This document shows positions 7,706 through 34,700 of a stretch of 64,000 nt of DNA, piece by piece. The translations under genes and the position numbers were made by a program. The stretch is taken from NCBI GenBank assembly GCA_949752735.1, contig OX457046.1:30128677-30192676 (forward strand), in the 5' to 3' direction. Each line of letters opens with the position of its first letter. Positions within the stretch are counted from its first letter, which is position 1. Origin of the DNA: Lumbricus terrestris. Lineage: Eukaryota; Annelida; Clitellata; Crassiclitellata; Lumbricidae. A model generated the notes under the pieces. That model did no database searches. It saw only the letters and a list, made by a program, of their open reading frames with translations, and was not told where the DNA came from.

Positions 7706-10700
7706 CTATAACAGAAGACAAATCGCTGAGCATTTATAATGAACGCAATGGATATGACGTCTATGCATGCGTAAATGCACGCAATGATGCCCAATATAAA
7801 GATATGAAATTAACTGTAGAGGTATGAGATGTAACTGTGAAGGTATGAAATGTAATTCTGCAATGATGCGAAATGTAAGAAAATCTCATTAACAGAAGAT
7901 GAAGAACAGGCACTTCAGTCAACTCTAGATTTAAGGAGTTCGCAGAATATATGCACATAATTCCAATGTAATACGCAGAACTCAAGTGGGAGCACATTAT
8001 AACTATACTCTCTGTCCCTGTCTGTCTGTCTTCTCTGTTTAATGTGTGACAGTGTGAGTAGGGCTCATAGGAACAAGATCCCCTAGCCAAGGACCAATAA
8101 TAAATGAAATAAATGTCAAATTTATTTATTTTTAGACTAGATGCGGCAATTTACCGAGTCAAAAACTTATTCTAAGCGCGGAATAGTTATGAATGATCAA
8201 CTAATACAAAGGCCAGTTTCAAAAGCTAACAAGACTTCCGTACGCTGACCTAAGCCAACAAGACTTACGTACACTGACCCAAGACAACAAGACTTCCGTA
8301 CAGACCTAAGTCAACAAAGACTTAGAACTGTACACTGACCTAAGCCAACAAGACTTCTGTACACTGACCTAAGCCAACAAGACTTCTGTACACTGACCTA
8401 AGCCAACAAGATTTCTGTACACTGACCTTGTTGCGGAACTTGACACCGTAGAACTTGTCTGCATGCTCCAGTAATTCCGGTCTGAACGTGGTTGTGATGA
8501 ACTGCGCATCCTTACAAAGTTCGTGTATCATATCTGTGATATAAGTATCAGAAATAAAAACAACAAAAGAACACAATTAATCGACTTCAAATCTTCTCAT
8601 CAGTTCCCAAAAACATCAGCGCTTGCCTATTATACCCTACACACGTAGTCACAACAAACCAAACGGTTCTGTCAGTTTTCAGTAAATTGAAAGAATTGTG
8701 CTAAGTACTTCAGCTTGTAACATTTTTATAAAGTCAACCAAACTTAGCTGAAGATGTGCAACCTACATAATTACTTGAACTTGATTTTAAAAGTGCAAGA
8801 TAACACACAATGACTAAATGCTTTATGTGCTGAAGCAGTCAAACATCTATTAATTGCTCTTTAGTGAGATAACTTAGAAACAATCAGATAAGTAAGTCAG
8901 TCAGTAAGTCAGTTAACTTGCTCATTCATGAAAAAATTTGCAAATTTTTTGCATATATCACAAGCTATGATATGGTATGAAACATCGCCTTTTTAGAGCA
9001 ATAACGATATCCAGTTGATATCTCAAAAATCAAAGAAATTTACGCAATTTATGTGCATCCATACTGCAGTATAAATAATTTAATAAATAATAATTAATTA
9101 AATTAATTTACTAAATACTAATAATAAATAAATCCTTTATTTCAGGCAAATCTTTCCACAAAAATGTCACAATTTACATCACATAACAGCCTAATTTTTC
9201 AACTCTATGGGAGCCACGCAAAGCTTACACGACTTTACATTACACCCCTGATCTTAATTCGATAGTAACCTGCAACAGCCTTTCGATGCTGAGAGTCGAG
9301 AGCCTGGTCTATTTCATCGAACAGATAGAACGGAGCGGGATCGCATTTCTGAATGGCAAAGATGAGAGTCAACGCGACCAGAGACTTCTGTCCGCCAGAC
9401 AACTGCTGCATATCTCGCATCTCAGCCTTTATACCAGTGAACGAAACCTACACAAAATAGCAACAGATCTTCAGTCTCCGCTTTCCAGAAGTACACAACT
9501 TGTTTATGTATAAACAGCACCTCTTAGAGACAGTTTCGTTCATTATAGCTCTTTACTTCCTAAATAGAACAGTCAGTGACATGAATTACAAATTTATATC
9601 AAATGTAGAAAATTACTACGCCAAAACAAAGATTTCAATTTTAAGACAATTCCTGACGTAGCTCTTAGTGATGGAGTATAGAAAGTTCGGGGGTGCAAAG
9701 CAATTACAATACAGTCAGCTGGCAACATGCAACTTCTGGCAAGAATGTTTGACTAAATTTCACGGCTAATATTGCAAAAGTCCAAACCTAGACACAACTA
9801 GCAACAGTGCTGTAATCAAATACATCTGCTCTGTTAATCAACGCACTTCTGTTGCAAACAGTTTAACTCTTTGATGACCAGCGTGAACTAAAATGCATAG
9901 AAAACATATATGTAGCTGGTTGTTAAATGGTAAAAATAAAATGCACTTTTTATGGTAATTAAATAATACTTCGTTACACTTCCTACACCCGATTCAACAG
10001 CATAGCAATAACAATGTAAGTATTGGATTTAAAACCTAAGTAGAAATAACTGTTGTGTCAAGAAGAAGGCAAGAACACAAACAAACAAGTAATACATCAG
10101 GTGACAACAAACAGGTGAAGGAGACTCACCTTGATGCCAACACAGGTGAAAGAGACTCACCTTGATGCCAACACCTGTGAAAGAGACTCACCTTGATGCC
10201 AACACAGGTGAAAGAGACTCACCTTGATGCCAACACCTGTGAAAGAGACTCACCTTGATGCCAACACAGGTGAAAGAGACTCACCTTGATGCCAACACAG
10301 GTGAAAGAGACTCACCTTGATGCCAACACAGGTGAAAGAGACTCACCTTGATGCCAACACAGGTGAAAGAGACTCACCTTGATGCCAACACCAGTGAAGT
10401 GCTCAACAATGTGTCCACTACCCGAAGCGTGACCATGACTATCAGTCTCATCCTCCTAAAAACGAAAAGGAGCACCAGAAGATGAATATTAACAACTATT
10501 TCATTAATTAAATTCACGAATTCATTCAATTCGAAAAATTTATATAGTGCCCCTTCAAGAAACCTACCCAGAGGCACTCCCTGACCAGCCACGGCTAAAG
10601 AGAGAGGTCTTGAAATTAATCAAATTTCATACACCTACCACAACACTGTATTTGAGAAGAACTATGAATGACGATATGTAACCGCAAAATTATTAAATAA

Positions 10701-31700: not shown

Positions 31701-34700
31701 GCTTACAACACAGAATCTATCGTTGTTGGAAACTAAAAAATTCAAGAAGAAATTAATTCTCTCTCTTTCTCTATCTGTCAGTCTGTCTCTCTCTCTCTCA
31801 GTCTGTCTCTCTCTATCTCTCTCTGTCTGTCTCTCTCTTTCTTTCTCAACATATTCAATTATTCATCAATTATTAATCAGTTCAAGGGAACAGAACATCT
31901 TCTTTCTCAACATATTCATCAATTATTAATCAGTTCAAGGGAACAGAACATCTGCATTCCTTGCAATAGGACAAGCACTCTGCCAATCAGCCAAAGGGGA
32001 AAAATTAGCTTGGAAAGAGCTTCCTTGAACTCTCCAGAAACACCATGCTAGTGGAATGTTAACATCCTTAACCATGGATGAGGTTCCGTTGACTTGGAAT
32101 TTCTCCGTGCTTGCGGGACTTTGTCTTTGGCGACCCTTCCAACATTACGGCTTTGTAAGCAGGGTATTATCAAATTAAAATTATAATCGCATATCGTATT
32201 GCAGAAATCTTGAAAGGGTGTTTCAGAAAAGTTAATAATTAATGAATGAATTAATCTAATACAGTGGTTTCCAACCCATGGTCCGCGGGCCAAAAGTGCC
32301 CCACCAGGCCTCAAAATGTGGCCCTCGTCCCTCAAAGAATTAACAAAATTATATGGCAAAATTGACAATTTGGACAGGATAGAACACATAATTATTTTCC
32401 ATTACAAATTATTTTATTTTTACATGGATCTATAAATGACATAAAACATTCTATTTTGATTCAATTATAACAATTTAAATGCTTTTAATTAATTAAAGTT
32501 TAGCCTTGTGGCCCCTAATGACCTTCATCTAAGAAAAAGTGGCCCTCGTGTCCTCCAACTTAGAAAAAGTGGCACCAAAGTCAAAAAATGCTGGGAACCA
32601 CTGATCTAATACAATGTCTTCTATAAGCAAGCCAAGACCATCTCTGTACAAGTAAGCCAAAAGCTTTAGAGTCGCTTTGAAAACGAGTAGCTGAAGAAAA
32701 CCGAAAGCACGGTCAGTCGGTCACTCACCGGAATACAAAAGCACGGTCACTCACCGGAATACGATTGTCAGAATTGTCGAAGATGATTTCGACGAAAGCC
32801 GAGATGACCCGAGGTCCGGTTCCCTCGTGGAGGAGAGCCTGTCTCTGCTCCTCCCTCAGATGACTAAACTCATCCGACAACACAAACTGAATCGCTACAA
32901 ACATCAAATCAACATCCAACTATCATTACCTACCTGCATGCATAGATTCTTTGTTGATTAGATTGATATACCTGTGAAAACTGAAGACTGAAGAGGTAGG
33001 CATTTCGTTGATAAGATTAACATACCTGTGTACAGGTATGCAACTTGTTGGGTAGATTCACACACTCGTATAGCTAGGCATCTTGTTGGCTAGATTCGCA
33101 TACCTGTATACAGTGTATAGGTAGGCATTTGGGGTAATATTCATATACCACTGTAGGTAGGCATTTTGCTTATTAGATTCACAAATATGTACAAGAAGGC
33201 AGTTTGCTGACTCCAGTACAGCGTATCCACCTCAGAATATTTGCACCAATGGTAGCTTATAATGTCACATGCATACACAGTAAAAAACAAAGCTCCCTGC
33301 TCCACAGCGGAAAGCAGGAAGAGGCTCATTTTGTTTACTTGAAGGCCTTTGAATTGGCAACAGACAATGTCAACAGAGTGAATATGGTGCTAGTTTATTC
33401 TAGAACTCAAGTTCAGTTTTTGGATTATGCTGACACCAAATTAAATAGACTTCCTGTTGACAGAAGTACATGTCCAACATCAACTTCCCAGGGTATTCGC
33501 ACACACAGAGTCCGCCGCAGCAGGAAAACTCTACATCCATTGCTTGAAGAAATCAGAAACTCCTTTAGTAGGTCTGAATCAGACACAACTAATAACAAGA
33601 ATCACTTTCCGACAATAATTATAGCATATCTTCATGCACTCTGGTTCCATCAAAAAATATCAGGCAATGTAATAATAATGGCAGGCCAATAAAAAAACCA
33701 TTATTCCCTTACGCTGGACTTGTCTAAATCTCTTTAAAAACTACTCAAGACTTTCCTCCTTGGCTTGCCCGAGTCTGGAGCTCCTTTGAACAGTTATGCT
33801 GAAGAGGTGCTATATAAATTCCAACAATAGATAAAATATACATCATAGTATTGAGACATAGCATACGAGTCAAAACAAAGTGAAATGTGGACACGTCTTT
33901 GAAGCCTAAAACTAACCGTAAAAGAAGTTACTCTTTCCGGAACCGTTTCGTCCGACTGCAAACAACAACAAAATTACACAGGTTTTCATAAACCATGTCA
34001 CTGAACACATTTACTTAACACATTCGGTGCCACGTACGTATATATACGTACTTCAGCCAGTCATTTAACATGGCGGGTAGGCAGTGAATGTGTTAAAATA
34101 CTCAGATGACCGTATTTTTCAGATTATAAGTTGCAGTTATTTACATGACAGTTGTGTATAGCATCCTATATAAAACTGCAGAACTGATCATCATGTTTGA
34201 TATCGAACATTGCTTAATGTAGCAAAAATTCATTTAAAAATTGCAGAAAATTTAACTTTTAACAAAAGCTGATTTTTTAGCAAGTATTTGCAGAAAATGG
34301 CCCAATACATTTACAGTCGCCGGCAGCACACACGTGCGTGTACAAGTGTACAAGGCAACTGACTTCTAAAAATTTGTTCCTTGCACCACTGCAGCTTTTA
34401 TTAAAAAAAAGTGAGATAATTTGTAGTCACAGTGTAATTCGAACTTTACAGTGCTAATCTTCAAATTTAAAGCAATACTAATCTTCAAATTTAAAGCAAT
34501 GCTAATCTTCAAATTTAAAGCAATACTAATCTTCAAATTTAAAGCAATACTAATCTTCAAATTTAAAGCAATACTAATCTTCAAATTTAAAGCAATACTA
34601 ATCTTCAAATTTAAAGCAATACTAATCTTCAAATTTAAAGCAATGCTAATCTTCAAATTTAAAGCAATACTAATCTTCAAATTTAAAGCAATGCTAATCT

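Follow-up and report, generated by a model that had tools for sequence, protein, structure and literature searches.

RESULTS

We examined a stretch of 64,000 nucleotides from the earthworm Lumbricus terrestris (NCBI GenBank assembly GCA_949752735.1, contig OX457046.1, positions 30,128,677 to 30,192,676 of the forward strand; this whole stretch is called the window below), whose minus strand carries the cohesin gene SMC3. Short tandem arrays span the 5' splice site (donor) of four SMC3 introns, and arrays of the same build recur at donors, and at one acceptor, of dynein heavy-chain genes in the same genome. They are minisatellites of the type described in amphioxus as mirages, here in a distant phylum, and they are common among the genes that we sampled. 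We consider it probable (about 0.6) that they are ordinary minisatellites of this type which arose by local tandem duplication, are tolerated at donors, where the first copy still splices, and are removed from acceptors and exons.

Tandem arrays span four donors of SMC3

Exons 2–31 of SMC3 were read on the minus strand of the window as one frame of 1,202 codons and a stop, with FVEDDTTHG as the terminal residues. Among the best 120 of 5,374 matches, the closest SMC3 protein, P0001, is identical at 1,188 of the 1,202 residues (98%); next come three SMC3 proteins at 81–82% and other annelid and mollusc ones, with Helobdella (80%) and Lamellibrachia (79%) in the lead. P0001 was predicted from a 3,964-base contig, which is too short for introns, and it therefore comes from spliced message. 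Exon 1 (5 codons, as judged from P0001) was not located in the window, so that introns 2–30 (29 of 30) could be tested. Intron 19 (window 20310–20624, minus strand), which starts with ATATCCTTTT and ends with TTCAC, looks like an AT-AC intron of the U12 type. The exons and arrays in question are as follows.

7634..36399, minus strand: SMC3 (cohesin), exons 2–31; 30 exons with splice borders in a single open frame
32755..32894, minus strand: exon 4, with the duplicated donor; splice borders and open frame
32718..32762, minus strand: donor array of intron 4, 26 bp x 2; upstream edge 8 nt inside exon 4; found by self-comparison
23730..23829, minus strand: exon 15; splice borders and open frame
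23676..23730, minus strand: donor array of intron 15, 15 bp x 3.7, with four GTCAGT donors; edge 1 nt inside exon 15
10378..10455, minus strand: exon 28; splice borders and open frame
10111..10398, minus strand: donor array of intron 28, 31 bp x 9.3, with nine GTGAGT donors; edge 21 nt inside exon 28
8427..8533, minus strand: exon 30; splice borders and open frame
8223..8428, minus strand: donor array of intron 30, 29 bp x 7, first units GTCAGT...TTAG; edge 2 nt inside exon 30

Arrays were called both by Tandem Repeats Finder and by self-comparison of the sequence. An earlier note on this DNA had described tandem repeats with units of 26, 15, 31 and 29 bp at the donors of introns 4, 15, 28 and 30, and self-comparison confirmed all four. 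The array of intron 4 is a mere two-copy duplication, absent from the Tandem Repeats Finder lists and detected by self-comparison. Arrays span 4 of the 29 tested donors and none of the 29 acceptors. The earlier note also held that the repeats share one phase, each unit beginning at the donor. This is partly a choice of where the counting starts; the real feature is that the upstream edge of each array lies at, or slightly within, the exon end. The four introns are, in addition, all of phase 0, which tells little because 15 of the 29 tested introns are (hand count). The intron 28 array, which alone was searched against the genome (simple and very common words being skipped), gave 1 match and is, by this search, not a dispersed or transposon-borne repeat.

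The SMC3 arrays are real and no accident of composition, because shuffled gene sequence carries only 0.04% of its bases in tandem arrays. The gene is rich in minisatellites: it holds 18 non-overlapping arrays (period at least 10, score at least 50). By self-comparison, arrays cover 16.4% of deep intron bases (at least 50 nt away from a splice site) and 0.9% of exon bases. Given this coverage, the donors (13.8%) are not above a random intron position, and it is the array-free acceptors that stand apart. One of the 18, a 24-bp array of 72 copies with 97% matches, occupies window 34454–36183 in intron 2, with one reading frame open per strand.

Donor arrays recur in dynein heavy-chain genes and in CTNNBL1

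We searched the same genome with the Pfam profile PF12780 (dynein motor domain), which gave 91 matches, with 30 loci. After an intronless locus had been excluded and further stretches added, the sample comprised 18 segments, 165 kb and 131 exon matches. These yielded 92 donors and 73 acceptors, the remaining ends falling below the splice-site score; removal of two pseudo-sites within one array and a shift of four sites to the proper copy left 91 donors and 72 acceptors. At one locus, L002 (C7:34613424–34614206), the dynein heavy-chain match lies within an open frame that continues without a break for 3,569 residues, and the locus is, for this reason, probably an intronless retrocopy.

Dynein arrays span 7 of the 91 donors, one of which (C13) is doubtful owing to a weak exon match, and 1 of the 72 acceptors. 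Under the strictest array score (30), 3/91 dynein donors and 1/72 acceptors remain, as do 3/29 donors of SMC3. The donor units repeat the end of the exon together with the start of the intron, measure about 23–36 bp, and have left edges 5–24 nt into the exon; over all 11 donor arrays of SMC3 and the dyneins, the upstream edge is 1–24 nt inside the exon and always less than one unit length, and the units differ between sites. The acceptor array (L019/L073, C16:19969597–19980797, segment position ~2059–2543) has a 54-bp unit made of the intron end and ~20 nt of exon start, and the dynein exon comes after its last copy. Deep intron positions of the dyneins lie in arrays at a rate of 5.1%, and about 1% of exon sequence does so in SMC3 and the dyneins.

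A genome-wide motif scan for repeated donors gave 30 loci, which amount to 11 distinct places; 6 of the 11 were inspected, those resembling simple repeats or a further copy of a dispersed family being left out. One is an exon of CTNNBL1 (E = 5e-18 to solved CTNNBL1; PF08216), which ends in a 23-bp donor array. Another shows a weak match to tektin (17 bits against a Pfam cut-off of 34.3; E = 0.0027), and a third has, by eye, an open frame reaching back to an AG. Two more are ambiguous, and the last is a dispersed repeat without the look of an exon.

These cases bear on the idea that the SMC3 arrays are plain coincidence in one repeat-rich gene. When arrays are placed at random (see below), SMC3 alone, a gene chosen after the fact, has 4 donors in arrays where 1.5 are expected (P = 0.04), which counts in favour of coincidence; but the replication at dynein donors and in the CTNNBL1 exon makes this account quite improbable.

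Later donor copies and the SMC3 protein

No inserted residues were found at the four array-bearing junctions in P0001 and 23 further SMC3 proteins, whose species may or may not carry such arrays. In 4 of these 24 proteins, the alignment has a gap 8–13 residues upstream of junction 28, within a variable stretch. According to our in silico analysis, splicing from the second donor would add 26 nt in intron 4, 31 nt in intron 28 and 29 nt in intron 30, and so shift the frame; in introns 28 and 30 the fourth donor is in frame but is preceded by a stop. Intron 15 differs, as its later donors, spaced by 15 nt, keep the frame open and would add 5, 10 or 15 residues.

Selection for spare donors, in which the additional copies would be a reserve for the first, had been put forward as one cause of the arrays. 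The donor hexamer is indeed retained among the copies of introns 15 and 28, but some copies in intron 30 have altered donors. Because the later donors of introns 4, 28 and 30 lead out of frame or into a stop, intron 15 alone staying open, we find such selection very improbable.

It is just as hard to see the arrays as steps toward new introns or exon ends, by duplication of AGGT as in the Rogers model or through GT...AG units. The units of SMC3 introns 28 and 30 do run from GT to AG, the final copy aside, as do those of 6 of the 7 dynein donor arrays, and mirages have been proposed as a route to new introns (PMC3087553). However, the units sit within existing introns, at 15–36 bp they would be too short to be spliced out, and no new splice junction appears among the 24 SMC3 protein relatives.

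Donors compared with acceptors and with the intron interior

In SMC3 and the dyneins together, arrays span 11 of 120 donors and 1 of 101 acceptors, which bears out, in the sampled genes, a difference between the two ends of introns (Fisher P = 0.007; P = 0.013 once the doubtful donor is set aside). The dyneins alone, 7/91 against 1/72, do not reach significance (P = 0.078). Comparison with random intron positions turned out differently: donors and deep intron stand at 13.8% and 16.4% in SMC3 and at 7.7% and 5.1% in the dyneins, with no significant excess in these sampled genes (one-sided P = 0.19 for the dyneins). Within this sample, the outcome is the one that the earlier note had named as refuting its proposal, a frequency at donors that does not exceed that at random intronic positions.

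The earlier note had proposed a process that duplicates DNA at splice donors. A mutational process of this kind, favouring donors through breaks at R-loops or through a hot spot in the sequence of exon end and donor, would leave selection to shape only the remainder. In its favour are the recurrence in unrelated genes and the lower rate at acceptors; against it, donors are not significantly above deep intron positions, and one acceptor array exists too. Genome-wide counts of three successive donor motifs reach 1,044 against 9,750 for the backward pattern, and 133 against 221 with a stricter motif, so that no excess of tripled donors was found; both figures include overlapping matches, and the backward control is inflated by simple repeats. 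As the backward pattern exceeds the donor pattern and yet resembles simple repeats, these counts do not favour an excess at donors and speak weakly against one.

Several observations nevertheless weigh against our preferred explanation of tolerated, randomly arising minisatellites. Arrays rarely extend into exons, and intron positions adjoining an exon are therefore expected to be covered less often than the intron interior. We took this into account with a placement null in which 76 arrays from a reduced list were set down at random with an exon overlap of at most one unit. This list omits the doubtful C13 case and one other dynein case, so that the test counts 9 donors and not 11. Arrays span these 9 of 120 donors where 2.9 are expected (P = 0.0007; 0.005 when one case is taken away). 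The dyneins alone, where C13 is outside the counted cases, give 5 of 91 donors against 1.4 (P = 0.013; 0.048 minus one case); this is the independent figure, because SMC3 was the discovery case and has to be discounted. Acceptors, with 1 observed against 2.65 expected, are not significantly below the null (P = 0.23), so that purging of acceptor arrays is not proven. Finally, the dynein exon end at reference residue 686 bears arrays in 3 of 7 paralogs (C7:8883000, C8:23496000 and C9:33470000 segments) with different units (23, 29 and 36 bp). These probably go back to separate events, and a local hot spot is possible (Fisher P = 0.009, post hoc).

The threefold excess under the exon-avoiding null speaks for a preference for donors. 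A duplication process that targets them is nevertheless not established, and we regard it as unlikely on balance. Its widest form is similarly unlikely: DNA at active 5' splice sites might be preferentially duplicated both in earthworms and, as a separate development, in amphioxus. The process would depend on donor sequence or on co-transcriptional structure at these sites and would seed donor-anchored minisatellites across the genome.

DISCUSSION

Comparison with known boundary minisatellites

The earlier note knew of no described system of this form. This was wrong, because the mirages of amphioxus match it. As reported (PMC3087553; PMC3902484), mirages are minisatellite-like tandem duplications over exon-intron boundaries, at both 5' and 3' borders, with units of 10–72 bp in Adh3. 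They occur in Adh3, in two globin genes (at an acceptor in BflGb6, at a donor in BflGb9), in PGBD5 and at other loci. Splicing is reported there to be undisturbed and array length to be unstable, even somatically (PMC3087553). The earthworm arrays are likewise tandem repeats over the boundary, at 4/29 donors in SMC3 and at 7/91 donors and 1/72 acceptors in the dyneins, and their units fall within the 10–72 bp range (15, 26, 29 and 31 bp in SMC3, about 23–36 bp at dynein donors, 54 bp at the acceptor). They differ in that they come from an annelid, lie chiefly at donors with donor units from 15 to about 36 bp, and were read from one haplotype.

Several other systems come close. The minisatellite of human IFI6 (6-16) has a unit bearing a splice donor and an array located at the donor (Turri et al. 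1995, as cited in PMC4526556 and PMC3618361). Its downstream units serve as donors and yield isoforms, whereas the 24 SMC3 proteins show no sign that later copies are used. Human segmental duplications contain internal tandem repeats over splice borders which can form introns (PMC2812944); those repeats are variable and reside in recent primate paralogs, while SMC3 is conserved widely. The gain of introns through tandem duplication of genomic DNA has been linked to AGGT (PMC4974935), but in the earthworm the copies lie at the start of existing introns and no new intron is shown. An earthworm metallothionein study treats intronic minisatellites, which in the text covered are not at splice sites (PMC12783039). 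Our literature searches on earthworm and boundary minisatellites turned up no annelid report, which is no proof of absence.

How the arrays may have formed and persisted

In our preferred explanation, a short segment comprising the last nucleotides of the exon and the first of the intron would be tandemly duplicated, by replication slippage or by repair between short direct repeats, as in other minisatellites, and some of these donor duplications would subsequently have expanded. The exon and its first donor would be left intact, and splicing could continue from this donor, the only one that adjoins the whole exon, while the extra donors would be carried inside the intron at almost no cost. 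A duplicated acceptor would put copies ahead of the exon, so that the first AG encountered would be the wrong one, and a duplication within the exon would alter the protein and be removed. Random duplication followed by loss of the harmful events would leave arrays at donors and in introns, with fewer at acceptors and in exons. For this species, we infer the mutational mechanism, the near-neutrality of the extra copies and the use of the first donor.

The profile of coverage fits such random origin with selective removal: deep intron is covered at 16.4% in SMC3 and 5.1% in the dyneins, donors at 13.8% and 7.7%, exons at about 1%, and acceptors at 0/29 and 1/72. The amphioxus cases, with undisturbed splicing and unstable length, likewise count in favour of tolerated minisatellites, as do the array edges within one unit of the exon end, the difference of units between sites, the single genomic match of the intron 28 array and the lack of inserted residues in the 24 SMC3 proteins.

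If about 1 donor in 10–15 carries an array in this annelid, as in our sample (11/120), boundary minisatellites are no oddity of amphioxus. At such a frequency they would amount to a natural experiment in spliceosomal choice between nearly identical donors in series, and the gain of introns through tandem duplication could be tested on them. They also matter for annotation, since aligners and gene finders may set an exon end on any of the copies, which befell four sites in our dynein scan.

Other features of the window

Two open frames, at window 42903–43898 (minus strand) and 61561–62604 (plus strand), are alike by eye, and the second matches structures with ankyrin repeats. A further open frame at window 46565–47353 (minus strand) appears by eye to be part of a retrotransposon reverse transcriptase.

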